A stretch of 64,000 nucleotides of DNA from Thermoanaerobacteraceae bacterium (lineage in GTDB: Bacteria > Bacillota > JADQBR01), in the NCBI GenBank assembly GCA_017656305.1, contig JACDOG010000004.1:1-64000 (forward strand), read 5' to 3'. Within the stretch, counting starts at the first letter, position 1. The number at the start of each line of letters is the position of its first letter. The translations under genes were made by a program, and so were the position numbers. The notes under the pieces were generated by a model, which saw only the letters and a list, made by a program, of their open reading frames with translations, had not been told where the DNA came from and did not search any database. Below, piece by piece: positions 3,701 through 61,144 of this stretch.

Positions 3701-5098
3701 CTATGCCAGATGCAGCGGTTTATCGAGCAGACCATGAGCAGCTTCCATAACGTTTTCTGCCAGCGTGGGATGGGCGTGAATGGTTTCAGCCACATCTTTA
3801 GCTGTTAAGCCCGCTTTAATGGCCAGTGCTATTTCCGCAATTAAATCCGTAGCATGCGGTCCCATTATGTGGCCGCCAATTATCCTGCCGCTGGCCTTTT
3901 CAGCAATCAATTTTACCGTCCCCGTTGTCTCCCCGAGAGTCAAGGCTTTCCCGTTGGCCGTAAAGGGGAAGCTGCTTTTAACGATGTCCAAGCCCCGTTC
4001 CCTTGCTTCTTTCTCTGTCAAACCTACACCGGCCACTTCCGGATAGCAGAAAATACAGTTGGGAACCGTACCGTAATCCACTACAGTTTCCTTACCCATG
4101 GCATTTTCCGCCGCCACAATTCCTTCAAATGATGCTACATGCGCCAGCATACTGCCTCCTGTTACATCGCCAACGGCATAAATCCCGGCCACGTTTGTCT
4201 GCATCCTCTCATCAACCACGATTGCTCCTTTGTCTACTTCCAGTCCCAACCGCCCGGTATCTATACCTTCCATATTCGGCACCCGGCCGGCCGCAAGCAG
4301 CACCTTGCTGCTTGTCACGCTTTGTTCTCCTCTGGCTGTTTCCACTGTGGCCTCATAACCACCGTCCGGCAGTTCTCTGACCTCTTTAACCTTCGCTCCA
4401 GTTAAGACATTGATACCGGCTTTTTTAAATACAGGGCGCAACCTGCGGGTTATTTCCTCATCCACCTGCGGTAAAATACCAGGCAGCATTTCCACCACGG
4501 TAACCTGCGTACCAAAAGTACTGAAAATGCTAGCAAACTCAACACCGATGACACCGCCACCGATAATGAGAAGGCTCTCAGGAACCTCTTTTAAATCGAG
4601 AATCGAATCACTGGTCAGTATGCCGGGCATATCCAGCCCGGAAACGGGAATCCTGGCCATGGTGGAACCGGTAGCAACAATAATCTTACTCGTGACAATA
4701 TCCTGTTCGGAACCATCCTCCCCGAGAACAGTCACCTTTCCGGGCTGGCTGACTTGACCTATCCCGGAAAAAACCGTGATCTTATTTCTTTTCATCAAGG
4801 TTTCTATGCCGGCCACCAAAGTATCCACTATAGCTGCTTTTCTGGCCAGTACCTTGGAAAAATTTACCCGCATACCTGTCACTTCTATACCAAAATCTGC
4901 CGCTTTTTGCATTTCCCGCCACAAAGCGGCACTCTTTACCATGGCCTTGGTAGGAATACAACCCCTGTTCAAGCAGGTTCCACCCAGCCGGTCCTTTTCC
5001 ACCAGGGCCACCTTTCCGCCGAGCCGTGCCGCCTTAATGGCCGCAACATAGCCGCCGGGACCACCGCCAACAACCGTTACGTCAAATTTTTCCGTCAC
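3701..5098 (-). CDS. lpdA: Dihydrolipoyl dehydrogenase (E3 / L-protein)
   Basis: About 465 residues. FAD-linked disulfide reductase that reoxidises dihydrolipoyl groups with NAD+. Seen: FAD dinucleotide motif GGGPGGYVAAIKAA at the N-terminus, redox-active disulfide GGTCLNRGCIPTK, a second nucleotide-binding motif IIGGGVIGVEFAS, the ATGRVPN-like segment AAGRVPN, the FAD motif YAVGDVTGG, and the C-terminal HAHPTLAENVMEA with the catalytic His-Glu pair. The longest frame begins with TTG at 5119; GTG at 5098 lies 5 nt behind AGAGGTGG and gives the usual MTEKFDVTVVGGG start. No E1/E2 genes adjoin it, and the glycine cleavage genes lie 5 kb away, so it is probably the L-protein of that system and may also serve 2-oxoacid complexes. 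Confidence 0.95.
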   Translation of the reverse strand: MTEKFDVTVVGGGPGGYVAAIKAARLGGKVALVEKDRLGGTCLNRGCIPTKAMVKSAALWREMQKAADFGIEVTGMRVNFSKVLARKAAIVDTLVAGIETLMKRNKITVFSGIGQVSQPGKVTVLGEDGSEQDIVTSKIIVATGSTMARIPVSGLDMPGILTSDSILDLKEVPESLLIIGGGVIGVEFASIFSTFGTQVTVVEMLPGILPQVDEEITRRLRPVFKKAGINVLTGAKVKEVRELPDGGYEATVETARGEQSVTSSKVLLAAGRVPNMEGIDTGRLGLEVDKGAIVVDERMQTNVAGIYAVGDVTGGSMLAHVASFEGIVAAENAMGKETVVDYGTVPNCIFCYPEVAGVGLTEKEARERGLDIVKSSFPFTANGKALTLGETTGTVKLIAEKASGRIIGGHIMGPHATDLIAEIALAIKAGLTAKDVAETIHAHPTLAENVMEAAHGLLDKPLHLA

Positions 5099-5147
5099 TA
5101 AAACCACCTCTACTTCCAAAAATAACTGCTATGTGAAAAACCCGGCC

Positions 5148-5194
5148 CGGTACTCAACACTTTTCACAACCAGTTCCAGGCCAGTTGAGCACCG
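5148..5194 (-). terminator. Inverted repeat after the symporter gene, possible terminator
   Basis: CGGTACTCAAC (5148-5158) and GTTGAGCACCG (5184-5194) pair with one mismatch around a 25-nt loop. On the minus strand the stem is followed by a GC-rich stretch and five T residues. It lies downstream of the symporter stop (5254), so it may end that transcript or act as an attenuator before lpd. Confidence 0.4.
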
Positions 5195-5253
5195 AGCCAT
5201 GCCAGAACCCTTCATTTATACAGGCCAATCTTTAATTCGCGGCAAACCATGGC

Positions 5254-6600
5254 TTACCCTTCCAGGGAAACCCGGGTTTTCTCAAACTCACATCTTCTTT
5301 CGGTTAAGAACCGGTTGGTTTCAGCAACAACAACGCCACTCAATCCCAGCAAGCCAATTAGGTTTGGCACTGCCATCAAACCGTTGAAGACGTCAGCCAG
5401 CTTCCAGACCAGGTCCAGCTCGGAAACAGCACCTACAAACACAGCGGCGACAAACAGATAGCGGTACACCATAACCGCACCTTCGCCCATCAGGTACTCC
5501 AGGCATTTCTCACCATAGTAGCACCAGCCGAGAATGGTCGAGTAGGCAAAGAAGATCAGACTGATTGCTACCAAAATACCACCGAAACCGGGCAAACCAT
5601 TGTTGAAGGCAATAGTGGTCAGTGCTGCACCGGTTTCACCGGAACCCAAAGCACCGGAAGTTATGATTGCTAGCGCGGTAATGGTACAAACAACAATGGT
5701 ATCGATAAATGTCTGTGTCATACTTACCAGCGCCTGGCGCGCCGGGTAGTCAGTTTTGGCCGCTGCAGCCGCAATGGGTGCACTGCCCAATCCGGCCTCG
5801 TTGGAAAAGACACCGCGAGCCACACCGTAACGGATGACTGTACCCAGGGCACCACCGGCAGCAGCCTTACCGGTAAAGGCTGAACTGAAAATGGTGGCAA
5901 ACGCTGCGGGAATTGCGCTGGCATTGATCAACAGGATTACCAGACCACCAATTACGTATATGGCAGCCATAATAGGTACTACAAAAGCCGTAACCCTGCC
6001 AATGCTCTTAATGCCGCCGAGAACAACCAGGGCAGTTAACACTACCAGCACTATTCCCGTAATTACCGATTCAACGCCAAAACTCTGGTACATGGCGTCG
6101 GCCACGGAATTGGACTGAACCATATTACCGATACCGAAGGCAGCCACGGCACCGAAAACGGCAAACAGCACACCCAGCCACTTCATGCCCAGACCTCGTT
6201 CGAGGTAGTACATGGGCCCACCGGACATTTCTCCTTTTTTATCCTTCACCCGGTACTTGACTGCCAAAATGGCCTCGGAATACTTGGTGGCCATTCCCAC
6301 AAGACCCGTCATCCACATCCAAAATACCGCTCCGGGACCACCAGAGAAAATTGCGGCTGCCACACCGGCAATATTACCGGTACCAATAGTAGCTGCTAGA
6401 GCTGTTGCCAGAGCTTGGTACTGGGAAATATCACCACTGCTGGTATCATCCTTGGAAAAAATCTGTTTATGGGCATAAATAAGCTTGGTGAACTGCAGAC
6501 CACGAAGACGAATTGTTAAAAACAAACCGGTACCTACCAACAAAATCAGCATCGGAGGACCCCAGACAAAATCACTGATAGCTGACAGAATATCCATCAT
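5254..6600 (-). CDS. Alanine/glycine:cation symporter (AGCS family)
   Basis: About 448 residues with roughly ten or eleven hydrophobic segments. AGCS hallmarks are visible: [50 protein letters not shown], and [26 protein letters not shown]. Family members import alanine or glycine with Na+ or H+. The longest frame starts at TTG 6609, only 3 nt from AAGGAG; ATG at 6600 (12 nt) or 6597 are alternatives. The gene lies just downstream of alanine dehydrogenase on the same strand, separated by a terminator, so it probably has its own promoter. A small palindrome, ATACCTGGTAT, is upstream at 6698-6708. Together with ald and the glycine cleavage genes it suggests uptake and catabolism of small amino acids. 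Confidence 0.95.
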
Positions 6601-6800
6601 GTTCGGCAAACACTCCTTTGATGCGGAAATAAATTTTCAATTTCTTAAAAAAAATCCGACAACATAAATGAGACCGCTTCAATTACCACCTTCTGCTATA
6701 CCTGGTATCACATGGGCAACAAATGTTAAAAGTCTATTCACCCCCCTCCAAAAAGGTTGCGAAATATACAACATTGCAAATTTTCTGAATTAAGAGTTGT

Positions 6801-6833
6801 TAAGAGAAAGCCCTGTTTAAGGGCTTTCTCTTA
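6801..6833 (-). terminator. Terminator after ald
   Basis: A perfect 13-bp stem, TAAGAGAAAGCCC (6801-6813) with GGGCTTTCTCTTA (6821-6833), and a 7-nt loop. It follows the ald stop at 6850 and insulates the symporter gene. Confidence 0.8.
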
Positions 6834-6849
6834 TTTAACTATATCGAAA

Positions 6850-7971
6850 CTAGTCGATTTCTGTCAATGGAGTATACTGGTAACCCAGGGCATCGGCCAC
6901 CACTTCATGTGTCACATAACCATTGTAGACGTTAACTCCTTTGGCCAATGCCTCATCTTCCCTGACAGCCTGCCGCCAACCCTTGTTGGCAATCTTCAAC
7001 GCATATGGAAGAGTGGCATTGGTCAAGGCAAAGGTGGAAGTGCGTGGTACCGCACCGGGCATGTTGGCCACAGCATAGTGCACCACGCCATGTTTTACGT
7101 AAATAGGATCATCATGGGTAGTTACGCGGTCAATGGTTTCAATACATCCACCCTGGTCAATGGCTACATCCACAATTACGGAACCGGGTTTCATTTGTTT
7201 TACCATTTCTTCCGTAACCAGGCGCGGTGCCCTAGCTCCCGGCAGCAGTACGGCACCGATCAACAAATCCGCTTCTTTAACCGCACGCTCTATGTTATAG
7301 CTGTTAGACATGATGGTCTGTACCCTGCTGCCGAAAAGGTCGTCCAGGTACATTAATCTTTCGGGGTTGATATCCAAAATTGTCACCCGGGCACCCATGC
7401 CAACGGCCATTTTTGCTGCATTGGTACCCACGGTACCGCCGCCAACTATCACCACATTGGCCGCCGGCACACCGGGGACGCCGCCCAAAAGCACACCTTT
7501 TCCGCCCTTGGGCTTTTCTAAAAACTGGGCGCCTATCTGCACGCTCATCCGTCCGGCAACTTCACTCATGGGAGCCAGCAGGGGCAGGGAACCATCCGGC
7601 AGCTGCACGGTATCGTAGGATATACCGACAACTTTTTTCTCCAGCAAAGCTTTGATTAGTTCCGGACCTGTAGCCGCGTGCAGGTAGGTAAACAGTATCT
7701 GTCCTTCTTTGAACAGGTCGTACTCCTGCGGCTGCGGTTCCTTGACCTTAAGAATCATGTCTGCTTCGGCAAAAACTTCTTCAGCACTGCCGGCTATTTT
7801 CGCCCCGGCCTGTACAAACTCTTCGTCAGTGAAACCGCTGCCCGTGCCGGCTTGCGTCTCCACAACCACCCGGTGATTGTTTTTTACAAAAGCTTCAACA
7901 CCAGCCGGTGTAATGGCAACCCTGTTTTCATTATTCTTTATTTCCTTGGGTACACCGATAATCAATTGCAT
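6850..7971 (-). CDS. ald: Alanine dehydrogenase
   Basis: 373 residues, the normal length. NAD-dependent interconversion of L-alanine with pyruvate and ammonia. Seen: N-terminus [20 protein letters not shown], the substrate region ILKVKEPQ with Lys75 and TYLHAA with His98, the NAD-binding glycine motif [16 protein letters not shown], and the C-terminal [20 protein letters not shown]. The open frame continues upstream to 8166, but ATG at 7971 behind AAGGGGAGTT is the real start: the 65-residue extension has no family counterpart and crosses a sigma-54 promoter at 8016-8031. Expression therefore appears to be sigma-54 dependent, with the activator encoded immediately upstream. Confidence 0.96.
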
Positions 7972-8015
7972 CAACTCCCCTTTTGTCGAACTACTTTTTT
8001 CAACCTCATTCTCTC

Positions 8016-8031
8016 GCAAATATCGTGCCAA
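8016..8031 (-). promoter_or_regulatory. Sigma-54 (-24/-12) promoter of ald
   Basis: On the minus strand the sequence is TTGGCACG-ATAT-TTGC, matching the YTGGCACG-N4-TTGC consensus with the exact GG-N10-GC spacing. Transcription would begin near 8004, giving a leader of about 33 nt before the ald ATG at 7971. The window also encodes sigma-54 (44552-45943) and a sigma-54 activator directly upstream of ald. Confidence 0.85.
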
Positions 8032-8133
8032 ATTAATTTCCGTCAATTCAGGCATCCCGACAAAGAGCCCAATAAAACTGGCTTCCGGTGGATACAAGCC
8101 TTGTACGCCTGTGCGGTAAAAAACAAAACTGAC

Positions 8134-8251
8134 GGCAAGAAATCTTGCCACCAGCCACCGGTTCATTTTGTTGAAAAATGTTTATTTTTCGCAATTCTTT
8201 AGTCTTTGACATGGTGGCAATTTTTCTTGCCAAGCGTAAAATTTTCTTGCC
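8134..8251. promoter_or_regulatory. Repeated GGCAA-N6-TTGCC palindromes, candidate activator sites
   Basis: Site 1 (8134-8149) is GGCAAGAAATCTTGCC with perfect 7-bp arms. Site 2 (8216-8231) is GGCAATTTTTCTTGCC with the same 16-bp length. A weaker third copy (8236-8251) keeps the right half TTGCC. Their centres lie about 138 and 220 bp upstream of the predicted ald transcription start, the usual place for sigma-54 enhancer sites. Inference: bound by the adjacent TyrR-like activator. Confidence 0.6.
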
Positions 8252-8261
8252 ACCCGCTCTG

Positions 8262-9812
8262 TCAGTAGCTGATATTGTATTTCTTAATCTTGTTCATAAT
8301 TGTAGTGTGCGATACTCCCAGCGCTTTTGCCGCTTTACGAATGGAACCGCTGTTTTTCAACACCTGGGTTATCAGCTGTTTTTCCACCCGGCTGACAATG
8401 TCATTAAGTGTTCTTTCCCGGGGTATACTTTGGGCCGGGATGTCCTGGTTGGGATCAATTAAAATCACATCAGGTGTCAGCCATTTTCCCGTCACCAGGT
8501 TAACCGCACGCTCAATGACATTTTCCAACTCCCGCACATTGCCCGGCCAGTCATGGCTGTACAGTTTCTCCAGTGCTTCCTTGGAGACGTATTCAACATT
8601 TTTATTAAACCTGATATTCATTTTTTCCAAAAAATGATTTACCAGCAGCGGAATGTCTTCCTTTCTTTCACGCAGGGGCGGCAGGTGAATGGGAATCACG
8701 TTTAAACGGTAGTACAGGTCTTTGCGAAATTCACTGGTTTCCACCATCTCTTCCAGGTTTTTGTTGGTGGCCGCTATTACCCTGACGTTTATGGGTATCT
8801 CCTCCTGACCGCCCACCCTTCGCACCTTTCCTTCCTGCAGCACCCGCAGCAGTTTGGCCTGCAGGTGCGGCGACACTTCCCCTATCTCGTCCAAAAAGAT
8901 AGTACCCCCGTTGGCAAACTCAAACAAACCCTGTTTCCCGTTTTTCCGGGACCCGGTAAACGCCCCTTCCACATAACCAAATAATTCACTCTCCAGCAAC
9001 GAATCCGGCAGAGCCGCACAGTTTACCGGCACAAACGGCTGGTCACGCCTGGGACTAGCCATGTGAATGGACCGGGCAAACAGTTCCTTACCCGTGCCGC
9101 TTTCACCCCGCAGCAGTACCGTGGAACCGCCCTCGGCCACCCTTTTACCCATTTCAATTACCTGCTGCAGCTTTTCACTTTCCCCAATTATGTCATCAAA
9201 AGTAACCATAGTGGGCTTGGTTACGGAGTAAACCAGTCTTCTCACTTCCGTCATATCCTTGATAGTGGCAACCACGCCGACAACTTTATTGTTTTTGTCG
9301 CGGATAGGTCTGCCGCTGGTCACATAATGATATTTTTTCTTCCCTTTGCTAATATTTATTTCATGATGGTTATAGGTCCGGCCAGTCCTTAAACAGTCCA
9401 GCATGGGTACGTCATCGGCCAGGACATCATTAATTTTCCTGCCAACCAGCTCTTCCTTGCTGGCATTTAAAATCTGTTCCGCAACGGGATTGACAGTGGT
9501 TATCTCTGCTTTGGAATTAATGGCCAGCACACCCTCGCTGATGGCATCCAGCACTGCCTGCAACCGCTGGTTGGTTTCCTCCCAGGGCATGAGCTCAATT
9601 TCCACACATTTAATTACGGCAGGAACAGCTTCCAGTTCCCGAAACAGCACCTGCTTGTCAGTGTTCTCCGGCACTGCCACTTCCAAGTAGGTAATATCGG
9701 GCACCACTTCTAAATTGGTCACGTTAATGTTTCTCGCCGTCAGCACTTTGGAAATATCCAGCAGCAGCCCCACCCGGTCTTTATTGATCACCTTGAATTT
9801 CAGGGTTTTCAC
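8262..9812 (-). CDS. TyrR-like sigma-54-dependent activator (ACT-PAS-AAA-HTH)
   Basis: About 516 residues. Domains in order: ACT-like domain (residues 1-75, [14 protein letters not shown]), a PAS domain (about 85-190), the AAA+ sigma-54 interaction domain (about 205-435) with Walker A GESGTGKE, Walker [10 protein letters not shown] and the sigma-54 contact loop GAFTGS (consensus GAFTGA), then a Fis-type HTH ([20 protein letters not shown]). No phosphoreceiver domain is present, so control is probably by a small ligand at ACT or PAS, as in TyrR. The longest frame starts at GTG 9836; GTG 9812 lies 6 nt behind GGGGGTGA and removes eight non-conserved residues. It precedes ald on the same strand, with repeated palindromes and a sigma-54 promoter between them, so ald is its likely target. 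The ligand is not predictable; alanine or another amino acid would fit. Confidence 0.93.
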
Positions 9813-9961
9813 CGCAGTCACCCCCGATTCCGTCACAGGTTGGTTACTTATTTACTACCTTCTGCTTTGAAGTCAATATTCCTCTAAATGCTTTCAAGTT
9901 AGCACATATTACCTGAGAAAAGCCACCCGTTAAATTTAAATTTATAATTTTTAAAAAATTG

Positions 9962-9990
9962 TTGCACAACTTTGCAGCCAATGTTACAAT
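9962..9990 (+). promoter_or_regulatory. Sigma-70 type promoter of the glycine cleavage operon
   Basis: TTGCAC (9962-9967), 17-bp spacer, TACAAT (9985-9990). Transcription would begin near 9997 and produce a 340-nt leader that holds the glycine riboswitch. Confidence 0.75.
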
Positions 9991-10029: not shown

Positions 10030-10251
10030 GCCGGATGAACGTCTCGGGAGAGACCTCCGGCAGGAGGCGCCGAAGGAGCAAACCAAAGCAGTTTCGCTGG
10101 CTGTTTTGGAGAAACTCTCAGGCACCCGTACCGGGATGGGACGGACCTCTGGAGAGTTCCTTGTTAAGGCAGCATGCTTAGCAAGGGCACCAAAGGGGTA
10201 GCTTCGGTGTACCCGTACAGCGAAGTAATCTCTCAGGTAACCGGACAGAGG
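10030..10251 (+). ncRNA. Tandem glycine riboswitch
   Basis: Two consecutive glycine aptamers. Aptamer 1 spans about 10041-10142: P1 is GTCTC (10041-10045) with GGGAC (10138-10142), and the conserved cores GGAGAGACC, GGCGCCGAAGGAGCAA and AACTCTCAGGCA are present. Aptamer 2 spans 10146-10251: P1 is CCTCTG (10146-10151) with CAGAGG (10246-10251), with cores GGAGAG, GGCACCAAAGGGG and AATCTCTCAGGTA. The 3' strand of the second P1 is also part of the terminator that follows, so glycine binding should block termination. The element precedes the glycine cleavage operon, which is its classical target. Confidence 0.95.
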
Positions 10252-10287
10252 AAACAGCGTGTTACGGTGTTTCCTCTGTCTTTTTTT
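10244..10287 (+). terminator. Riboswitch-controlled terminator
   Basis: GACAGAGGAAACA (10244-10256) pairs perfectly with TGTTTCCTCTGTC (10268-10280), followed by seven T residues. CAGAGG of its 5' arm is shared with P1 of the second glycine aptamer, making the two folds mutually exclusive. This predicts an ON switch. Confidence 0.92.
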
Positions 10288-10336
10288 CGTTTAAATATCC
10301 CGTCAATTTAAGATACTAAAAGTGAGGTGATGAAAA

Positions 10337-11425
10337 TTGAAAAAAACCCCGCTACACAAAGCACATCTGGAAGCCAATGCTAAAATGGTAAATTTTGGTG
10401 GCTGGCACATGCCAGTGCAGTATGTGGGCATTTTGGAAGAACATAGAAACGTGCGCACCAAAGCAGGATTGTTTGACGTATCCCATATGGGAGAAATTGA
10501 TATCAAGGGTAACAGGGCCCTGGAACTGGTACAGAAGCTGATCACCAACGATGCCAGCAAGCTGGCCGTAAAACAAGCACTATACACACCCATGTGCCTG
10601 CCCAACGGCGGCATTGTGGATGACCTGCTAGTCTACCGCAAGGGTGAAAACCATTTTCTGCTGGTAGTCAATGCGGCCAATACAGATAAGGATTACCAGT
10701 GGATTGAAGAGCACGCCATTGACGGCGTGGCAATCGCAAACATTTCCTCAGAAGTGGCGCAGCTGGCCCTGCAGGGTCCCCTGGCGGAACAAATCCTGCA
10801 AAAAATCTCTAACAAAGACCTGTCTCAAATCAAGTTTTTCTGGTTTGACTACGTCAAGGTAGACGGCGAGGATTGTCTGGTATCCCGCACCGGTTACACG
10901 GGTGAAGACGGGTTTGAAATTTACCTGGCACCGGACAAGGCAAGAAAAGTCTGGTATGCCATCCTGGAAGCAGGTAAAGAGGAAGGCGTCATGCCTATCG
11001 GCCTGGGTGCCAGGGATACGCTGCGGTTTGAAGCAAGATTGCCCCTGTACGGCAATGAGTTGAGCGAAGAAATCTCGCCGCTGGAAGCCGGCCTAGAAAT
11101 GTTCGTGAAACTTGACAAGGATAACTTCATCGGCAAGGAAGCGCTGGAAAAACAAAAAGCCGCCGGCGTTAAAAGAAAACTGGTCGGACTTGAAATGCTG
11201 GACAGAGGGATACCGCGCACCCATTATAAGGTGCTGAAAGACGGCGAAGAAATCGGCTTTGTCACGTCCGGTTCCTTTTCACCAACGCTGGAGAAAAATA
11301 TCGGCCTGGCATTGATCAAAGCGGAACACGCCCGGATAGGTAACAAAATAGAAATTCAAGTGCGCGGGAGAAATTTAAAAGCCAAAATTGTCAAAACACC
11401 ATTTTATAAAAGGGAGGTCAAATAA
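10337..11425 (+). CDS. gcvT: Glycine cleavage T-protein (aminomethyltransferase)
   Basis: 362 residues. Transfers the aminomethyl carbon from lipoyl-GcvH to tetrahydrofolate, releasing ammonia. Seen: N-terminal [48 protein letters not shown], the folate-binding region with [33 protein letters not shown], and the C-terminal barrel with [20 protein letters not shown]. The start is TTG at 10337, 6 nt after GAGGTGA; the nearby ATG at 10330 is out of frame. First gene after the glycine riboswitch; gcvH follows after 2 bp. Confidence 0.97.
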
Positions 11426-11427
11426 AT

Positions 11428-11811
11428 ATGTTTCCAAAAGATTTTAAGTATTCCAGAGAACATGAGTGGGTGAAAATTGAGGGAACTAAGGTGCGTCTGG
11501 GGATTACACATTATGCCCAGGATGCACTGGGGGACGTTGTGTTTGTGGAGCTGCCGGAAGTAGGAACTGAATTTGCAGCCAATGATTCCATCGGGGTTAT
11601 TGAATCCGTCAAGGCGGTTTCCGATGTCTACACCCCCGTATCGGGCAAAGTAGTTGCGATTAATGAAGCCCTGCTGGATTCACCGGAACTGGTCAACGAG
11701 GACCCTTACGGTGACGGGTGGATAGTGGAAATGGAAATGAGTGACACCGGCGAGCTGGATAACCTCATGACGGCGGAAGAGTACCAGAAGTTTCTCAAAG
11801 AGGAGGCTTAA
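11428..11811 (+). CDS. gcvH: Glycine cleavage H-protein
   Basis: 127 residues, the standard length. Lipoyl carrier that shuttles the aminomethyl group between P-, T- and L-proteins. The lipoylation site is Lys62 in IESVKAVSD, within the barrel motif [12 protein letters not shown] ... [25 protein letters not shown] at 11428 follows AAAGGGAGGTC of the preceding gene's end. In this operon it is also the likely substrate of the LipM and radical SAM proteins encoded downstream. Confidence 0.97.
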
Positions 11812-11813
11812 AG

Positions 11814-13154
11814 ATGAATTTCGTTCCCAATACCGACAGAGACCGGCAGAAAATGCTCGAATTCCTCGGCATGAATTCGCTCGCGGACCTCTTTGCTCAT
11901 ATACCCGACAGCATAAAACTGAAAAAAGAGCTCGACCTGCCTGAGGGCATGTCGGAGCTGGAACTGGTAAGACATGTCAGACAATTGAGCGATAAAAACG
12001 CCAACCTGGAGGAATACAACTCCTTTTTGGGCGCCGGAAGCTACCAGCATTATATCCCCAGCATTGTCAATCACTTGCTGCTGCGGTCGGAATTCTACAC
12101 TGCCTATACCCCGTACCAGCCGGAAATCAGCCAGGGTACACTGCAGGCAATTTACGAATTTCAGAGCCTGATCTGCCAGCTGACCGGTATGGACGTGGCT
12201 AACGCTTCCATGTACGATGCCTCCACCGCCATGGCGGAGGCAGCGGCACTGGCCAGCGGGCAAACCAGAAAAAACAAAATTGTGGTTTCCTCCACGGTAC
12301 ATCCCGAATACCGGCGGGTGCTCAAAACCTATGCCGAAGCACAGGGGTTGGAAGTTGTGGAAACGGGATACCGGGACGGTGTCACGGATTTGGAGGACCT
12401 GGAGGCCAAACTGTCGGACAATACCTCGGCGATAATTGTACAGCAGCCCAACTTTTTTGGCTGCATTGAACCCATGAAGGACATCAGTGCCGCAGTGAAA
12501 AAGACCAGGGCAATGTTTATAACTTCCGTTGACCCGGTTTCACTGGGGGTGTTGCGCCCTCCTGCCGAGTACGGCGCCGACATCGTTGTCGGGGATGCAC
12601 AGGCTTTTGGCAATCCCATCAGTTTTGGCGGACCCCATGTAGGCTTCTTTGCCGTAACCAAGAAACTGATGCGCAAAATGCCCGGCAGGATTGCCGGAAA
12701 AACAAAAGATAAGGATGGTAGGCGTGGCTTTGTCCTGACGCTGCAGGCCAGGGAACAGCATATCAGGAGAGAAAAAGCCACGTCCAACATCTGCTCCAAC
12801 CAGGCCCTGGCAGCACTGGCCGCCACCATTACCATGGTCACCCTGGGCAGACAGGGTCTGAAAGAAATGGCAGTGCAGTGCGTGAACAAGGCGCATTACG
12901 CCTGCCAGCAGCTCACAACCGTTGAAGGTGTCAAAAGGACCTTTAGCGCACCGTTCTTTAAGGAATTCGTAGTAACAGCCGACAGGGACATCAATACCAT
13001 CAATAACGGCCTGCTTAAGCAAAAAATTATCGGCGGCTTACCGGTGGAAAGATTCTATCCCGAATTAAAGAACAGTTCCTTGCTCTGCGTAACGGAGGTA
13101 AAATCCAAGGAACAAATTGATGAGCTGGTAAGCGCGTGGGAGGGATTAAAATAA
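11814..13154 (+). CDS. gcvPA: Glycine dehydrogenase (decarboxylating) subunit 1
   Basis: 446 residues. N-terminal half of the split P-protein found in Bacillota, Thermotoga and archaea; it pairs with GcvPB to decarboxylate glycine. Recognisable segments are [82 protein letters not shown] and the C-terminal [10 protein letters not shown]. The start is the ATG at 11814, 2 bp after gcvH and behind AGAGGAGG. The stop TAA overlaps the ATG of gcvPB (TAATG), so translation is coupled and stoichiometric. Confidence 0.97.
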
Positions 13155-14608
13155 TGACAGAACCCTTAATATTTGAACTGAGCAAACCGGGACGCAAGGC
13201 CTATTCGTTGCCCGCCTTAGATGTACCGGAAAAAAGTCTGGAAGACCTGCTGCCGGAAGAAGAACTGCGGCAGAAAGACCCTGCATTTCCGGAAGTAAGC
13301 GAAGTGGACGTAGTGCGGCACTATACCCGCCTGTCCCAGCTAAATCACGGCGTGGATACCGGGTTTTACCCCCTGGGTTCCTGTACCATGAAGTATAATC
13401 CCAAAGTTAACGAGGACCTGGCGCGGCTGCCGGGATTTGCCCATATTCACCCGTACCAGCAAGAAGAAACCGTGCAAGGCGCCCTGAAGATTATGTATGA
13501 ACTAAACCGGTATTTAAGCGAAATTACCGGCATGGAGCGTTTCAGCCTGCAGCCGGCTGCCGGCGCCCACGGCGAGCTTACCGGTCTAATGATCATCAAA
13601 AAATACCACAAAGACCGCGGGGATAACCGACGCACCCAGGTAATCGTACCCGACTCGGCCCACGGCACCAACCCGGCTTCTGCCGCAGTATGCGGGTATG
13701 AAACCGTGGAAATTCCCTCTAACGACAAGGGTAGCATAGACATCGAAGCATTGAAAGAGGCCGTCAGTGATAAAACGGCCGCTTTAATGCTTACCAACCC
13801 CAACACCATAGGCTTGTTTGAAGAAAATATCGAGGAAATTGCAGCCATTGTCCACGAGGCCGGCGGGCTGCTCTATTACGACGGTGCCAACATGAACGCC
13901 ATTATGGGTATCGCCCGCCCGGGTGACATGGGCTTTGACATAGTTCACCTCAACCTGCACAAAACCTTTTCCACCCCCCACGGTGGCGGTGGTCCCGGGG
14001 CAGGACCGGTGGGAGTGAAGGACTTTTTGGTCCCCTACCTGCCAAACCCGCTGGTGGAATATGACTCCGCAAATAACCGGTATTACCTGGATTATGACCG
14101 ACCCCAATCGATCGGGCAGACAAAAGCTTACTACGGTAATTTCGGCGTAGCCGTCAAGGCCTATGCATATATTATGAGCGTAGGTGGAAAAGGTCTAAAA
14201 GAAGTTGCGGAAAACGCCGTTTTGAATGCCAACTATCTCATGCGCAAATTGAGCAGGTATTATCACCTGCCCTATGACCAAACATGTATGCACGAGTTTA
14301 TCATCACGCCCAAACCTTTTAAAGAAAAGGGAATACACACTCTGGACATAGCCAAGCGGATGCTGGACTTCGGCTACCATCCACCTACCATTTACTTCCC
14401 GTTAATTGTGGATGAAGCAATGATGTTTGAACCCACGGAAACCGAGTCCAAGGAGACGCTGGACAACTTTGTTAAGTCCATGTTACAAATTGCCAGGGAA
14501 TGCGAGGAAAACCCGGAAATAGTAAAAAGCGCCCCGCACAACACACCGGTCGGCCGGCTGGATGAGGTAACTGCCGCCAGAAAGCCGGATTTGAAATGGG
14601 ATTCCTAG
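13154..14608 (+). CDS. gcvPB: Glycine dehydrogenase (decarboxylating) subunit 2
   Basis: 484 residues. Pyridoxal-phosphate subunit of the split P-protein. The cofactor lysine is Lys270 in [20 protein letters not shown]. Other conserved parts are [45 protein letters not shown], and [12 protein letters not shown]. The frame opens at GTG 13136 but ATG at 13154, after GGGAGGG and overlapping the gcvPA stop, is the real start. The operon continues on the same strand into two radical SAM genes after a 112-bp gap that holds an imperfect palindromic repeat. Confidence 0.97.
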
Positions 14609-14619
14609 AATACAGAAGT

Positions 14620-14677
14620 CAGAAGTCAGGAGACAGAATCCCACTGTTTCATTCTGGATTCTAACTCCTGTCTTCTG
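14620..14677. repeat. Long imperfect palindrome in the gcvPB-radical SAM gap
   Basis: CAGAAGTCAGGAG (14620-14632) pairs with CTCCTGTCTTCTG (14665-14677) with one mismatch, and the inner AGAATCC (14635-14641) pairs with GGATTCT (14656-14662), leaving a 14-nt loop. A 7-bp unit AGAAGTC is repeated in tandem at its left end. There is no T-run, so it is not a standard terminator. It looks like a copy of a dispersed palindromic repeat, but only one copy is in this window. Confidence 0.6.
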
Positions 14678-14720
14678 ATGGAAACTCCTTTTGAAAACAC
14701 TGGGTAACCGGAGGATATTT

Positions 14721-15608
14721 ATGACTAGCGCAAATACCGATTTAACTGCTCTTGTAAATACTGCCTGGATGCTGCGGAAAATCCATTTTCCCGCCAGCAT
14801 CCAGTTTAATTACCCCACAGGTACCAAAGTACTCAGCGTCACCGGCAGTCACTGTTCCCTGAACTGCGCGCACTGCGGGGGGCATTACCTGAAAAATATG
14901 ACGCCACTTCAACATATTTCTGCTGACTGCCAGGCAGGCAATCTCCATGACTGCACCAGTTGCCTGATAAGCGGCGGCTGTGACAGCCACGGGAAAGTCC
15001 CGCTGGCGTCCAACTGGGAACTGTTGAAAAAATTAAAAGCAACCAAAAGGATGAACCTGCATGTTGGCCTAGTATCCGAAGAAGAGGCAAAGAAACTGCC
15101 GGAAGTTTGCGACGTGGTCTCCTTTGATATGGTAGGAGATGACGAAACAATCCGGGAAGTTTACGGGCTGGATAAAAGTGCAAGTGATTACCGGAAAAGT
15201 TACAACATTTTACGAAAATATGTAAAGGTATTACCCCATATCTGCATTGGGCTCAGGGGCGGAAAAATCAGCGGGGAGTACCGAGTGCTGGAAATGCTGG
15301 CTGAAGACGGCGCCGACGGCCTGGTATTTATCGTTTTCAGCCCGACGAAAAACACCAGGTATGCCGCAAAAGAGCCGCCCCCGCTGGAAGAAGTCGTCAA
15401 AGTCTTTGCCACTGCCAGAAGGATGTTTCCCCACATACCTATTCACCTGGGATGCATGCGCCCCAAAGGACGGTATCGTGAAAAGCTGGATGTCCTGGCT
15501 GTCAGGTGCGGGGTAAATAAAATTGTCGTACCCACAAAAAAGGCAGTGGAAACCGCGAAAAACCTGGGTTTGAAAATTTCCTACGGAGAGGAGTGTTGTG
15601 TACTGTGA
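14721..15608 (+). CDS. Radical SAM protein, probable LipS-type lipoyl synthase component
   Basis: 295 residues. The radical SAM cluster motif CX3CX2C is C45-C49-C52 (SHCSLNCAHCGGHYL). Further cysteines lie at 70, 78, 81 and 87 and at the C-terminus (292, 293), enough for an auxiliary cluster. The frame opens at TTG 14691, but ATG 14721 lies behind GGAGG and is preferred. The stop overlaps the GTG of the next radical SAM gene (GTGA). The pair is followed by lipM and preceded by gcvH, whose product needs lipoylation. Two-protein lipoyl synthases made of radical SAM enzymes LipS1 and LipS2 are known in Thermococcus and some bacteria that lack LipA; the context and cysteine layout fit this. Which of the two subunits this is cannot be told here. 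Confidence 0.7.
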   Translation: MTSANTDLTALVNTAWMLRKIHFPASIQFNYPTGTKVLSVTGSHCSLNCAHCGGHYLKNMTPLQHISADCQAGNLHDCTSCLISGGCDSHGKVPLASNWELLKKLKATKRMNLHVGLVSEEEAKKLPEVCDVVSFDMVGDDETIREVYGLDKSASDYRKSYNILRKYVKVLPHICIGLRGGKISGEYRVLEMLAEDGADGLVFIVFSPTKNTRYAAKEPPPLEEVVKVFATARRMFPHIPIHLGCMRPKGRYREKLDVLAVRCGVNKIVVPTKKAVETAKNLGLKISYGEECCVL

Positions 15609-16582
15609 TCAGGGTGTCAGCCGGTACGGCAAATGTTTTGGGCTTAAAAAAATTAACCACGGACGCTCCTCCCACTACCGCCTATCTAATGTCCGGGGAA
15701 AAGTGCTCCCACGACTGTGCCTTCTGTCCCCAGGCACGAAACAGCACCGGCAGAAGCGACCTGCTGGCCCGGGTAACCTGGCCGGATTATGATGAAAATA
15801 CAGTGGTAAGCGAAATCGGCAGGTCATTCGCATGCAACAGGTTGAAGCGAACCTGCCTGCAGGTGGTCAATAGGCAGGATTCACTGGATAAGGCCAAAAA
15901 TTTCTTAACCAAACTCAAACAAAACACCTCTGTTCCCGTCTGTGTTTCCTGCAACCTTTCAACGCCGGAGGAAGCAGGTGAACTTTTTGCACTGGGTGCC
16001 GACCGGGTGGGATTGGCCCTGGATGCCGCGTGCGAAAGGGTATATCAAAAGGTAAAAGCCGGTTCGTTTACAAAGCACCTTCAGCTGATAGAAGAAACAG
16101 CCAGGCTTTACCCGGGCAGGATTAGCACGCATTTAATAGCCGGTCTCGGGGAGACCGAGGAAGAAATGGTAGCAATCATGGCTTACATGGTCAGCCTCGG
16201 CGTGACCATCGGCCTATTCGCGTTTACCCCGGTGAAGGGTACCCGCCTGGAAAACGGGCAGCCCCCTGACATCGCCTCGTACAGGAGAATCCAGTTGGCC
16301 CAGTACCTGCTAGCAAATAAGTTGGTGGACAGGAAAGATATTAAGTTTCACGGTGGAAAAATCATTGAGTTTGGCCTTCCCCGGAAGCAGCTGGCTGCAG
16401 TTGCAAAAACCGGCAAACCCTTTCAAACATCCGGCTGCCCGGACTGCAACAGGCCCTATTATAACGAAAAGCCGGGCGGTGTTATTTATAACTATCCCAG
16501 ACCTTTAACTCCAGAAGAAATAGATGCCGTGTTGCGAGAATTGGGTTTTACGGCAGGTGATGCAGCATGCAGTGGCGACTGA
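15605..16582 (+). CDS. Radical SAM protein, probable partner LipS-type lipoyl synthase component
   Basis: 325 residues, similar in build to biotin synthase-like radical SAM enzymes. The radical SAM motif is C34-C38-C41 (EKCSHDCAFCPQAR). Additional cysteines include C77 and C84, C113 and C116, and a C-terminal pair C278-x2-C281 within SGCPDCNRPYYNE, followed by YNYPRPLTPEE. The chosen start is GTG 15605, overlapping the upstream TGA; the frame is also open from GTG 15593. It overlaps lipM by 16 bp. No biotin genes are nearby, so biotin synthase is unlikely. With its neighbour it is the best candidate for sulfur insertion into octanoyl-GcvH. Annotation as lipoyl synthase subunit is inference from context. 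Confidence 0.7.
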   Translation: MIRVSAGTANVLGLKKLTTDAPPTTAYLMSGEKCSHDCAFCPQARNSTGRSDLLARVTWPDYDENTVVSEIGRSFACNRLKRTCLQVVNRQDSLDKAKNFLTKLKQNTSVPVCVSCNLSTPEEAGELFALGADRVGLALDAACERVYQKVKAGSFTKHLQLIEETARLYPGRISTHLIAGLGETEEEMVAIMAYMVSLGVTIGLFAFTPVKGTRLENGQPPDIASYRRIQLAQYLLANKLVDRKDIKFHGGKIIEFGLPRKQLAAVAKTGKPFQTSGCPDCNRPYYNEKPGGVIYNYPRPLTPEEIDAVLRELGFTAGDAACSGD

Positions 16583-17385
16583 TTAATACGGGCTACAATA
16601 CCGGCGCCTATAACATGGCGGTAGATGAAGTTCTGCTGCGGCAGGTTAGTACCGGAAGAAGCAAACCTGTCATCAGATTCTACGGCTGGAAACCGCCTGC
16701 CATTACGCTGGGCTACTTTCAGGACCTGGAACGGGAAATAGATACTGCAAGCTGCAGGAAAAGAGGCATTGACATTGTAAGAAGGCTCACCGGAGGGCGG
16801 GCGGTTCTGCACCATTACGAAGTTACCTACAGTGTAATTGCACCGGAAAAGGATGAACGGGTATCGGGTACCATTATTCAATCATATTTAAAGATAAGCC
16901 GGGGGCTTGTAGCAGGCTTACGCTCTCTTGGTATTCCCGCCGAGCTGACGCCTCACGGTAAAAAACCGGGACCGGACAGTACAGCAGCATGTTTTGAAGC
17001 ACCTTCGTGGTACGAGATAGTAATTGACGGTAAAAAGCTGGTGGGCAGTGCCCAAACCAGAAAAAACGGCACTTTACTGCAGCACGGGTCCGTGCTGCTT
17101 GACCTGGACGTGGAAGAGCTGGCAGATACCATAAAATTCAAGAGGCCGGAGATCAAAGAACGCTTTATAAAATCATTCCCCCGAAAGGCCTGTGCAGTCA
17201 ATCAAGTTATGGACAGGAAATTTGATTTTGATACCGTTGCCGCGGCGCTGACCAAAGGGTTTGAACAGGAGTTTCGCATCACACTAGTGCCGGAAAACCT
17301 CACTGTGGAAGAGCAGGCCCTGGTCCGGGACCTTGTGCCCAAATATACCTCTCCCGACTGGAACCTGCACCGAAAAGTCACCTGA
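16567..17385 (+). CDS. lipM: Octanoyl transferase LipM (lipoate-protein ligase A family)
   Basis: 272 residues, of the LplA/LipM/LipL fold. It closely resembles Bacillus LipM, which moves octanoate from acyl carrier protein to GcvH. Visible family motifs are PVIRFYGWKPPAITLGYFQ, VRRLTGGRAVLHHYEVTYSV, CFEAPSWYE with Cys142 (the acyl-thioester cysteine of LipM enzymes) and KKLVGSAQTRKNGTLLQHGS with the conserved lysine region. ATG 16567 lies behind AGGTGA and overlaps the upstream gene by 16 bp. A lipoate ligase using free lipoate is the alternative, but the Cys and the whole-length match favour LipM. It closes the gcv-lipoyl operon. Confidence 0.9.
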   Translation: MQWRLINTGYNTGAYNMAVDEVLLRQVSTGRSKPVIRFYGWKPPAITLGYFQDLEREIDTASCRKRGIDIVRRLTGGRAVLHHYEVTYSVIAPEKDERVSGTIIQSYLKISRGLVAGLRSLGIPAELTPHGKKPGPDSTAACFEAPSWYEIVIDGKKLVGSAQTRKNGTLLQHGSVLLDLDVEELADTIKFKRPEIKERFIKSFPRKACAVNQVMDRKFDFDTVAAALTKGFEQEFRITLVPENLTVEEQALVRDLVPKYTSPDWNLHRKVT

Positions 17386-46151: not shown

Positions 46152-46183
46152 AAATAAAAAAAGTGCTACTTTTTCAGCAGCAC
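46152..46183 (-). terminator. Terminator after the DUF1405 gene
   Basis: GTGCT (46163-46167) pairs with AGCAC (46179-46183) and T residues follow on the minus strand at 46152-46162. The stem covers the stop codon at 46166. Confidence 0.5.
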
Positions 46184-46762
46184 CAACCCCAGTAAAACCA
46201 ACAGAAGCATGCAGGACAGGGCTACAGCGGTTATCATCCCGTAAAACACCTGGTCACTGCTGAAAAGGTAGGGATGAAACCCGTAGGCATAATCCACCCA
46301 ATCGTTAAAAAACATCCAAAGAGCGGGCACAATGATTGCAGCAGCATTGACAGATAAACGGCGCAGAAAAATCAGTCCCTGCGCAGCCATGCCCAGGTGG
46401 GACCACCAGAGCATCCAGTCGGTCCAGTTCTGACTGTCCCCCCAAAACCAGGCCTGGGTAATCATGACCACCGCCCAGATGCCGTACTTGACAACACCTG
46501 TATACGCCACAGCTTCAAACCAGAAAAACCTTTTCAGCAAACCGCGGTTATGTAACAGCAGCAGGACCATCACCAGTGCAAAAAACGTGGTGGAACGCGG
46601 GCTGTCGGGAATTACAGGCCAGTAACACAGGGCGTTGGCCGTCAGTTGGTGCCGGTACCAGTAGTAACCGTAAACGGAACCCAAAATGTTTATGACCAGC
46701 AGGCCGGCAAGAAACCAATTTTTATGCGGATTTTTCAGAGCATCAATAAAGCTTGACCACAT
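46166..46762 (-). CDS. DUF1405 membrane protein (YpjA-like)
   Basis: 198 residues with five or six membrane segments and an N-terminal WFLAGLLVINILGSVYGYYWY, typical of the DUF1405/YpjA family. Function unknown. It overlaps the acyltransferase gene by 20 bp, suggesting coupled translation. Confidence 0.85.
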   Translation of the reverse strand: MWSSFIDALKNPHKNWFLAGLLVINILGSVYGYYWYRHQLTANALCYWPVIPDSPRSTTFFALVMVLLLLHNRGLLKRFFWFEAVAYTGVVKYGIWAVVMITQAWFWGDSQNWTDWMLWWSHLGMAAQGLIFLRRLSVNAAAIIVPALWMFFNDWVDYAYGFHPYLFSSDQVFYGMITAVALSCMLLLVLLGLVLLKK

Positions 46763-47264
46763 TTTCCGCCTGCTCCTCCACCTGCAGTTTTTTGATTACC
46801 CGTGCCGGCACACCGCCAACCATGGTATAGGGGGACACATCCCTGTCAACCAGGGCACCGGCTGCCACCACTGCACCCCTGCCAATTTTCACTCCCGGCA
46901 GGATGGTGCTATTGGCGCCGATCATGACGTCATCTTCAATTTCCACCGGGCCGAGCCGGTATTCGTGGCGCAGAAACTCGTGGCAGAGAATCGTACAGTT
47001 GTAACCAAGTATTACCTCGTTCCCCAGGGTTATCAGTTCGGGATAAAAAATATCAATCATAGCCATGAGGCCGATGGAGACGTTTTTTCCCACCTTGACT
47101 CCCAGCAGGTTTCTAAACATCCAGGCTTTCAAGCGCATGGAGGGAGAATACCTGGCAATTTGGATGACGATAAAGTTTTTGGTTGCCTTTAACCGCCCCA
47201 CCACCCGGGGCCAGTACTGCAGTGAATTCTTGTCTTTAACCGGATACCGTTTGATGCGCCGCAT
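46743..47264 (-). CDS. Hexapeptide-repeat acyltransferase
   Basis: 173 residues. The C-terminal two thirds shows left-handed beta-helix repeats: VGKNVSIGLMAMID, ITLGNEVILGYNCTIL, VEIEDDVMIGANSTILPGVKIGRGAVVAAGALV, ending VGGVPARVIKK. The His in LCHEF may act in catalysis. Such proteins O-acetylate sugars or other acceptors. It lies between the MATE and DUF1405 genes on the same strand, possibly in one transcript. Confidence 0.88.
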   Translation of the reverse strand: MRRIKRYPVKDKNSLQYWPRVVGRLKATKNFIVIQIARYSPSMRLKAWMFRNLLGVKVGKNVSIGLMAMIDIFYPELITLGNEVILGYNCTILCHEFLRHEYRLGPVEIEDDVMIGANSTILPGVKIGRGAVVAAGALVDRDVSPYTMVGGVPARVIKKLQVEEQAENVVKLY

Positions 47265-47282
47265 ACCATCACACCTTCCGCT

Positions 47283-48635
47283 TTAAACCTCTATTGCCTT
47301 CCAACTTCCTCTTAAAAAGCGGTACAGCGCCAGCAGGCTCAGGATAAACCACTGGCCGACCGTTACCCACCAGACTCCTGCCAACCCAAGATGAAATACC
47401 TCCAGTACCAGGTAGACAAAAGGCACCCGAATAAACCAGTTGCCCACCACCGCCAGGTACATGGGCCACCGGGCATCTCCAGCACCGCGCAGCGCGCCGG
47501 CCAGCACCATTTCTACAGCCAGGGTGGTTTGCTCAAAGGCGCCGATGCGCACGGCCCGGGCAGCCTGACTTATAACCGCAGGCTCGTTGGTAAAGACAGC
47601 AACCACCTGCCGGCTGAAGAAAAAGAAAATCAGTGCCATGAAGGTCATAACCACTACAGCCCATTTAACGGCGGCCCAACCGCTTTTTTCTGCCTCTTCC
47701 GGCTGCTTTGCACCCAGGTGCTGCCCCACCAGGATGCTGGCAGCAATGGCAAACCCGTAACCCGGCATAAAGGACAGGGACTCCACGGATAGGGCCACCT
47801 GGTGCGCCGCGTAGGCAACGGAGCCCAATCCGGTCAGCATAAAGGTAACAATAAAGTTGCTGCTGCTTTTTAAAAATTCCTCAATACCACCGGGTACTGC
47901 CAGACGCAGGATTCTTTTGATCACTGCCAGTTGCAGCGGGAAAATATCCGTCACTTTGAGCCGGACGGACAGCCGGCCGCTGGCCAGTATAGATAAGATA
48001 ATGACGCTGGCCAAAAAGAAGGCGGTACCGGTACCGATGGCCGCACCCTGCACTCCCAGGCGCGGCAGCCCGAACTTACCGTATATGAGGGTGTAATTAA
48101 GCACGATGTTTACCGTATTGGCAAACCCGGCAACATACAGCGGGATTTTGGTGTACCCTGCACTGCGGGTAACAAACTCGCCAATAAGCAGTACCAGGAA
48201 AAATGTCCCGGGAAATGCTAAAATTTTCAAATAACTGCTGCCCAGCTCCAGCACCTGCCGGTTAACCTGAAACAACCCCACCACGCGTTCGGCAAAGAAA
48301 AAACCCATACACCCCAGGACCAGTCCAACCACGAGCCCCAAACCCACCGCCTGCGCAATGACAAACCCTGCCCGGTCGTATTCCCTGGCGCCCACGTGCC
48401 GGGCTACAATAGCGCCGGCACCAACTCCGATAGCAGCAAACACGAACAGTACGGTAAACAAAATCTGCTCGCCGAGACTGATAGCCGCCAGCGAGTCCGC
48501 CCCCAAACGGCCTACCATGGCCACATCGGCTATGCCCACCGCCATGTGCAGCATCATTTCCAGGATGGCCGGTAAAGCCAGCGGTAAAATGCGCCTGTTT
48601 GCTTGTAAATTCGCTTCTCTTACTGCGCCGGCCAT
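47283..48635 (-). CDS. MATE family efflux transporter
   Basis: 450 residues with about 12 membrane segments in two halves, as in NorM/DinF-type pumps. Recognisable parts: ALPAILEMMLHMAVGIADVAMVGRLG, the second-half VPGGIEEFLKSSSNFI and ASILVGQHLGAKQPEEAEKSG. Exports drugs or metabolites by Na+ or H+ antiport; substrate unknown. It begins 1 bp after the whiA stop codon, so it is probably cotranscribed with whiA. Confidence 0.93.
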   Translation of the reverse strand: MAGAVREANLQANRRILPLALPAILEMMLHMAVGIADVAMVGRLGADSLAAISLGEQILFTVLFVFAAIGVGAGAIVARHVGAREYDRAGFVIAQAVGLGLVVGLVLGCMGFFFAERVVGLFQVNRQVLELGSSYLKILAFPGTFFLVLLIGEFVTRSAGYTKIPLYVAGFANTVNIVLNYTLIYGKFGLPRLGVQGAAIGTGTAFFLASVIILSILASGRLSVRLKVTDIFPLQLAVIKRILRLAVPGGIEEFLKSSSNFIVTFMLTGLGSVAYAAHQVALSVESLSFMPGYGFAIAASILVGQHLGAKQPEEAEKSGWAAVKWAVVVMTFMALIFFFFSRQVVAVFTNEPAVISQAARAVRIGAFEQTTLAVEMVLAGALRGAGDARWPMYLAVVGNWFIRVPFVYLVLEVFHLGLAGVWWVTVGQWFILSLLALYRFLRGSWKAIEV

Positions 48636-48636
48636 C

Positions 48637-49578
48637 TTATTCCCTGAAACTTTCCGCCAGTTTCTCCAGACGGCGCATGCGGTGGTTGATAGCCGATTTG
48701 CTCAAGGGCGGTTCCATCATTTCTCCCAGTTCCTTCAAACTGGCATCAGGGTGCTCCAGGCGGAGGGCAGCCAGTTCCCGCAGTGCCGGGCTCAGTTTTT
48801 CCATGCCCATGTTGGCCGCAACCAGTTGTATCGCCTCTATCTGCCGCATGGACGCCTCGATACTCTTGTTCATATTGGCGGTTTCACAGTTAACCAGCCT
48901 GTTCACCTTGTTGCGTATATCCTTGTAAACCCGGATACTTTCGAAATTTAACAGGGCGGTGTGCGCGCCGATGATATTTAAAAATTGAATAATCTGGTCC
49001 GCCTCTTTTAAGTAAATCAACCCCACCTGCTTGCGTTCGGTGGCTCGGGGCTTCAGGTTAAAACTGGACATCAGGTCACAGATCAAGGAAAGATGCTCCG
49101 GGTCATGCACCACCAGTTCCAGGTGATAAGAACCCCCGTGGGGGTCATTAACCGACCCCCCGCCCAAGAACACTCCCCGCAGGTAGGCCTTGCGGCAACA
49201 GGGGTTTTTCAGCAGGGCATTCTCCTTCCAGCCGGTTTCACCGCTGCGAAAGGCCAGATCAATACCGGTGCGCTGCATCAGTTTAATTATGCCCGGTTTG
49301 TGATTGATTTCCACCACGTAAACATTATTTTTGCGCAACCGCCGCTTGCGCCGGATTAACGTTTCCGTATCTAGGTCAAACAGCATTTTTACCAGCTTGA
49401 TAATCTTTCTGGCTACCGCCGCATTTTCCGACTCCATGCGCAGGCTGAGACTCTGGTTGGCGCCCAGGTGAATGGTGCCGTCCAGCCGTACCAGCGCCGC
49501 CAGTTCGGCCAACCTGCAGCAGGCGCTTGACGGTATTTTGCGGGCCAGCTCATTTTTACACTTCTGTGAAAACGACAT
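48637..49578 (-). CDS. whiA: DNA-binding protein WhiA
   Basis: 313 residues. An N-terminal LAGLIDADG-like fold (SFSQKCKNELARKIPSSACCRLAELAALVR) followed by a C-terminal HTH (LRLEHPDASLKELGEMMEPPLSKSAINHRMRRLEKLA). In Bacillus WhiA affects cell division and chromosome segregation; in Streptomyces it controls sporulation genes. It is third in the rapZ-yvcK-whiA cluster, 47 bp after yvcK. Confidence 0.97.
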   Translation of the reverse strand: MSFSQKCKNELARKIPSSACCRLAELAALVRLDGTIHLGANQSLSLRMESENAAVARKIIKLVKMLFDLDTETLIRRKRRLRKNNVYVVEINHKPGIIKLMQRTGIDLAFRSGETGWKENALLKNPCCRKAYLRGVFLGGGSVNDPHGGSYHLELVVHDPEHLSLICDLMSSFNLKPRATERKQVGLIYLKEADQIIQFLNIIGAHTALLNFESIRVYKDIRNKVNRLVNCETANMNKSIEASMRQIEAIQLVAANMGMEKLSPALRELAALRLEHPDASLKELGEMMEPPLSKSAINHRMRRLEKLAESFRE

Positions 49579-49625
49579 AGCACTCCCCCCGAATCGTCGT
49601 TCCTGGGCAGGAACAAGAATCCCGG

Positions 49626-51835: not shown

Positions 51836-51906
51836 AGGTTAATCACCCCTATATAGAGAGACAAAATATACCATCACCGGTCCGCTATCCCGGCGGGTAT
51901 TGCCGC

Positions 51907-52647: not shown

Positions 52648-52703
52648 TTTTTTGTACCTCCCCTAAGCGATGCGCGAGGTGCCAATATGTTTGCCCACTC
52701 ATA

Positions 52704-54251: not shown

Positions 54252-54352
54252 TTATGACACCCCCACGTTTTTCTCATATAAAATTCGACATTTGACAGCG
54301 CATCAGTATCAACGTGCCACGGCCAATTTAGACCGGCCCGGCACCGCGTTGC

Positions 54353-58997: not shown

Positions 58998-59012
58998 GGT
59001 CAGCTTCCCCCG

Positions 59013-61016: not shown

Positions 61017-61144
61017 TTTCCATCACCTGCCTGGAAATGGTGGAAAAAATAACTTAACATATTATTATATCATAACTTAACCCCCGCAGCCCAGGCAAAA
61101 ACTACTAACTAATAAATCAGACCGATAGATCAACAACGGCACTC

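Follow-up and report, generated by a model that had tools for sequence, protein, structure and literature searches.

A predicted LipM-LipS2-LipS1 lipoylation line encoded with the glycine cleavage genes behind a tandem glycine riboswitch in a Thermoanaerobacteraceae bacterium

Lipoyl assembly routes and layout of the gcv-lip locus

In Thermococcus kodakarensis the lipoyl sulfur atoms are inserted by LipS2 at C8 and then by LipS1 at C6, and this order has been demonstrated (PMC9585515). Bacterial LipS1/LipS2 proteins have been established by experiment for the sLpl(AB) route, and that study also describes frequent pairing of LipS1/LipS2 with ligases, a co-occurrence with LipM inferred from genomes of Schekmanbacteria, Synergistota and Thermotogota and, as cited background, the Bacillus subtilis route LipM-GcvH-LipA (PMC10332631, PLoS Biol 2023). 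The novelty of a bacterial LipS1/LipS2 system with LipM is thus smaller than a first, sequence-only reading of the present locus had implied, both the bacterial pair and its combination with LipM being already published there.

The window analysed is a stretch of 64,000 nucleotides of a Thermoanaerobacteraceae genome (contig JACDOG010000004.1), and the features considered are the following:

3701-5119, minus strand: lpd, dihydrolipoyl dehydrogenase, candidate L-protein of glycine cleavage (TIGR01350, 558 bits, cut-off 409)
8262-9836, minus strand: ACT-PAS-sigma54 activator (TyrR/PrdR-like), divergent from the operon (Pfam PF00158, PF00989, PF01842)
10035-10251, plus strand: tandem glycine riboswitch, two RF00504 aptamers at 10035-10143 and 10146-10251 (Rfam cmscan)
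10241-10289, plus strand: long hairpin followed by TTTTTTT, intrinsic-terminator-like expression platform (sequence and fold)
10337-11425, plus strand: gcvT, aminomethyltransferase (NCBIfam TIGR00528, 462 bits)
11428-11811, plus strand: gcvH, presumed lipoyl acceptor, Lys62 in IESVKAVSD (NCBIfam TIGR00527, 180 bits)
11814-13154, plus strand: gcvPA, glycine dehydrogenase subunit 1 (open reading frame, tblastn homology, same order in relatives)
13136-14608, plus strand: gcvPB, glycine dehydrogenase subunit 2 (same evidence as gcvPA)
14606-14695, plus strand: hairpin between gcvPB and lipS1 (fold -31.4 kcal/mol, z -3.6)
14721-15608, plus strand: lipS1, predicted C6-sulfur radical SAM lipoyl synthase subunit (NF053742, cluster ligands)
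15605-16582, plus strand: lipS2, predicted C8-sulfur radical SAM lipoyl synthase subunit (NF053743, cluster ligands)
16567-17385, plus strand: lipM, putative octanoyltransferase with acyl Cys142 (PF21948, no Lip_prot_lig_C match, CFEAPSWYE loop)

The two overlapping radical SAM genes and the octanoyltransferase gene lie after gcvT-gcvH-gcvPA-gcvPB as originally noticed, with the gcvH gene in the same apparent operon. The four gcv genes are separated by 2, 2 and -19 bases, 112 bases follow before lipS1, and all genes are on one strand. The lipS1 gene has an ATG start with GGAGG 6 bases upstream (product of 295 aa), lipS2 has a GTG start that overlaps the lipS1 stop by 4 bases (325 aa) and lipM overlaps lipS2 by 16 bases (272 aa). 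The hairpin between gcvPB and lipS1 is an almost perfect inverted repeat that lacks a T run, and no second copy was found within the window. It possibly has a role in processing or attenuation and, because such a strong structure separates gcvPB from lipS1, co-transcription of the gcv and lip genes is less than assured.

On the opposite strand, divergent from the gcv genes, the region 3701-9836 encodes the ACT-PAS-sigma54 regulator, an alanine dehydrogenase, a Na+/alanine symporter and the dihydrolipoyl dehydrogenase, functions of glycine/alanine catabolism. The regulator scored 452 bits against NF041552, under the cut-off of 795. A -24/-12-like site with one mismatch (TGGCACGATATTTGCG) is located at 8015-8030 on the minus strand, 50 bases before the likely alanine dehydrogenase start at 7965, and it could be a target of this regulator; a scan for sigma-54 promoters allowing 3 mismatches gave no excess above chance.

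Identity of the radical SAM pair and its acyl-transfer partner

The profile search has assigned the two radical SAM proteins to LipS1 and LipS2, as had been proposed. LipS1 covers the whole curated NCBIfam equivalog NF053742 (317.1 bits, model span 1-268 of 268, cut-off 230) and LipS2 the whole of NF053743 (395.1 bits, model span 1-292 of 292, cut-off 270). With the starts chosen here the CX3CX2C cysteines fall exactly at the positions first given, C45/C49/C52 in LipS1 and C34/C38/C41 in LipS2. The remaining ligand residues are C245, C292, C293 and H173 in LipS1, and C84, C278, C281 and H176 in LipS2. In T. kodakarensis, mutagenesis has identified as auxiliary [4Fe-4S] ligands C230, C276, C277 and possibly H159 of LipS1, and C85, C276, C279 and H178 of LipS2 (PMC9585515). 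These residues were located by way of Thermococcus homologues in alignments with 71 LipS1 and 86 LipS2 sequences, and both proteins of the window have every mapped ligand. The auxiliary cysteines and histidine of LipS1 are kept in 68-71 of the 71 aligned rows, the exceptions being mostly gaps, and those of LipS2 are invariant (86/86). From these assignments it is predicted that LipS2 adds sulfur at C8 of an octanoyl substrate and LipS1 at C6 of the 8-mercaptooctanoyl substrate.

The initial impression that neither radical SAM protein resembles LipA is borne out by the LipA model TIGR00510 (cut-off 310), to which LipS2 gave 29 bits and LipS1 no match at an E-value of 0.001; a single-gene LipA variant was rejected as their identity. 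It is scarcely conceivable that they are biotin synthase-like enzymes without a role in lipoate synthesis. Weak BioB matches (30 and 56 bits) and the best PDB match of LipS2, weakly a biotin synthase, would favour such an identity, but the BioB cut-off is 225 bits, both proteins exceed the thresholds of their LipS equivalog models and both have the auxiliary [4Fe-4S] ligands, so that biotin synthase was rejected. The PDB search gave no close solved relative of LipS1.

The third protein contains the LplA/LipB-family catalytic domain (PF21948, 155 bits) without the accessory domain PF10437 (Lip_prot_lig_C). Its Cys142, at the position originally given, sits in AACFEAPSWYE, and this cysteine probably corresponds to the active-site cysteine of B. 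subtilis LipM. The CFEAPSWYE loop occurs in nearly all gcv-linked LipM partners and is missing from the archaeal LplA-type partners and from both LplA-type (ligase-like) proteins encoded on another contig of this genome, C7. This distribution argues for an octanoyltransferase more than for a ligase and supports, at the level of sequence, the LipM-type assignment made at the outset. That the protein is instead a lipoate:protein ligase salvaging free lipoate or octanoate, and not an ACP-dependent octanoyltransferase, is improbable: its PDB sequence matches are all lipoate-protein ligases, and LipS1/LipS2 are often paired with ligases elsewhere (PMC10332631), but the acyl-Cys loop, which ligases lack, is present and no LplB or Lip_prot_lig_C domain was found. 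The features of the sLpl(AB) type, a ligase with an LplB domain and a nearby lipT gene, are both absent from the gcv-lip operon; LipT-like and LplAB-type proteins are encoded on contig C7 instead.

Glycine control, the lipoyl acceptor and the distribution of LipA

The two aptamers upstream of gcvT scored 67.8 and 40.6 bits in Rfam cmscan, with a gathering threshold of 32. A weak promoter match lies upstream of them (9963-9990), and the terminator-like hairpin at 10241-10289 was absent from the output of the consensus scanner. Glycine riboswitches of gcv operons are in general activating. Since the tandem riboswitch and the terminator hairpin precede gcvT, glycine probably turns the gcv-lip operon on, which supports the earlier idea of a bacterial, glycine-inducible version of the system. 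A glycine riboswitch was also found before gcvT in 15 of the 17 gcvPB-linked lipS loci tested, and Peptoclostridium litorale (L042) has one, together with a terminator, directly upstream of lipS1-lipS2-lipM and with no gcv genes nearby.

Judged from the sequence, it is highly probable that the operon supplies both a cofactor-bearing protein and the enzymes that mature it. Abundant glycine would act through the tandem riboswitch to block termination, so that gcvT-gcvH-gcvPA-gcvPB-lipS1-lipS2-lipM would be transcribed. LipM would then transfer the octanoyl group from octanoyl-ACP to its own Cys142 and on to Lys62 of GcvH, LipS2 would put sulfur from its auxiliary [4Fe-4S] cluster at C8, and LipS1 would put sulfur from its own auxiliary [4Fe-4S] cluster at C6, giving lipoyl-GcvH. 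The order C8 then C6 is assumed for these enzymes by analogy with the archaeal pair. No gene for the electron donor LipT was found in the gcv-lip operon, so that a general ferredoxin or flavodoxin is the probable source of electrons.

The pathway had also been called LipA-independent, which holds for the chemistry of the operon and fails for the genome. A genome-wide search for lipA revealed a canonical lipA on contig C7 (G000:C7:53077-53946, 394.6 bits, cut-off 310) adjoining lipB (194 bits, cut-off 155) within a 2-oxoacid dehydrogenase cluster, so the organism is not LipA-free. The same cluster includes a second, diverged LipS1/LipS2 pair whose LipS2 is below the NCBIfam cut-off. Genome-wide, four GcvH-family proteins (three besides that of the operon), one E2 and two ligase-like proteins were found. 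The presence of lipA/lipB, the second LipS pair, the ligase-like proteins and the additional GcvH-like proteins makes the substrate of the operon LipS pair and the need for it less certain in this organism.

The C7 region (46182-61401; L032, L033) encodes E1a and E1b of a 2-oxoacid/acetoin-type dehydrogenase, an NAD-kinase/DAGK-like (AcoX-like) protein, an E2 fused to a CMD/AhpD-like domain, an LplAB-DUF116 fusion, LipB, LipA, two GcvH-like proteins around GlcD/GlcF-like genes, a geranylgeranyl-reductase-type (LipT-like) flavoprotein, LipS2 and LipS1, the LipA and LipS systems thus sharing one cluster. The fusion (L033:2202-3800) is a lipoate ligase with a C-terminal DUF116 domain. In Thermodesulfobacteriota/Myxococcota MAGs and in Sporomusa, homologues of about its length (518-533 aa) are encoded next to lipT-lipS1-lipS2 (L114, L116, L117, L118).

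It is unlikely that GcvH is lipoylated here mainly by the C7 LipB/LipA, with the operon LipS1/LipS2/LipM as a backup or condition-specific supplement. The high-scoring lipA and lipB lie side by side with a 2-oxoacid dehydrogenase, which would favour this route, but the gcv-linked LipS pair has intact ligands and is itself kept in family-mates with or without lipA, and its operon location and riboswitch fit the demand for GcvH.

Synteny has been analysed in the 80 best LipS2 loci of public GTDB genomes. The gcvPB-lipS1-lipS2-lipM order recurs in 25 of these loci which, together with E-values of 1e-94 and 2e-118 for the two curated families, indicates that neither the radical SAM pair nor the gene order is due to chance. 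Another 5 loci, from Chloroflexota, show the order lipS1-lipS2-gcvT, and gcvH lies near lipS1-lipS2 in 6. In a quick LipS2 tree (SH-aLRT support, without bootstrap) the window protein falls in a clade with all gcv-linked rows (54 rows, SH-aLRT 99), and the C7 protein in a separate 8-row clade (SH-aLRT 100) with Sporomusa and lipT-linked Thermodesulfobacteriota/Myxococcota relatives.

Two other arrangements were observed. In Clostridioides difficile (L069:445-11813) the genes annotated here, from their protein sequences, as lipS1-lipS2-lipM close what appears to be the acetyl-CoA (Wood-Ljungdahl) operon, after gcvH, with a putative activator-like protein containing a ferredoxin domain between gcvH and lipS1. 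In one family-mate (G002, L036:1492-2474) lipS1-lipS2-lipM is divergent from the same ACT-PAS-sigma54 regulator at about 107 bases, with no gcv genes between them.

It is very improbable that the LipS pair modifies another acceptor, such as an E2 domain or a GcvH-like protein from a different locus, and lies in the gcv operon by coincidence. The four GcvH-family proteins and the E2 of this genome offer such acceptors and the trio of P. litorale has no gcv neighbours, yet association with gcv genes or with gcvH is seen repeatedly across both Bacillota and Chloroflexota, and in the C. difficile acetyl-CoA pathway operon the trio comes after gcvH.

A lipA gene above the cut-off was detected in only 6 of the 47 genomes reached through such loci, many of them MAGs that are perhaps incomplete; both counts include Sporomusa malonica, which has a LipS2 outside the gcv type. 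Seven isolates carrying the same lip genes (P. litorale, Propionispira arboris, Romboutsia maritimum, R. sedimentorum, Tepidibacter thalassicus, C. difficile and Peptococcaceae CEB3) and a 100%-complete single-contig family-mate gave no lipA match above the cut-off, and as a control the model exceeded its cut-off in 10 of 14 genomes. We consider it rather likely that many anaerobic Bacillota, C. difficile and Peptoclostridium included, have as their only lipoyl synthase a GcvH-dedicated LipM-LipS2-LipS1 line, located in the gcv operon or controlled by a glycine riboswitch of its own, that cofactor synthesis is then under glycine control and that, where both systems occur, LipA and LipS are split between the 2-oxoacid dehydrogenase and GcvH.

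Comparison with described systems

The enzymes are already known; the setting in a gcv operon with a glycine riboswitch, and the spread in Bacillota without detected LipA, were not found described among the open papers searched, a partial set that was also searched for glycine riboswitches with LipS or lipoate genes and for lipoate synthesis in C. difficile. The locus would represent a compact bacterial system in which the target protein, an octanoyltransferase, a split lipoyl synthase and a glycine sensor are found in one apparent operon, and the order LipM, LipS2, LipS1 would become testable on a natural substrate. A possible source of lipoyl-GcvH would be explained for many anaerobes that have a glycine cleavage system and no detected LipA, and annotations of such genes as "biotin synthase" or generic radical SAM proteins would be corrected.

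The T. kodakarensis system (PMC9585515) shares with the operon both LipS proteins, all cluster-ligand residues and the predicted two-step chemistry, but it is archaeal, lies outside a glycine cleavage operon and, according to PMC10332631, has a bipartite LplAB ligase as partner instead of LipM. The B. subtilis route, as outlined in that source, also begins with octanoylation of GcvH by LipM, whereas its sulfur is inserted by the single-chain LipA. In the sulfur-oxidiser pathway sLpl(AB)-LipS1/LipS2-LipT (PMC10332631, PMC6067878), a LipS pair also serves a GcvH-like acceptor encoded nearby, but with the ligase sLpl(AB), the flavoprotein LipT and the acceptor LbpA, in contrast to LipM, no lipT and a true GcvH in the operon; the C7 LipS pair appears nearer to this type than the operon pair. 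The LipM with LipS1/LipS2 of Schekmanbacteria, Synergistota and Thermotogota is an identical enzyme combination, but these are other phyla, and for them the main text of PMC10332631 does not mention a gcv operon such as the one that accompanies the same enzymes here.
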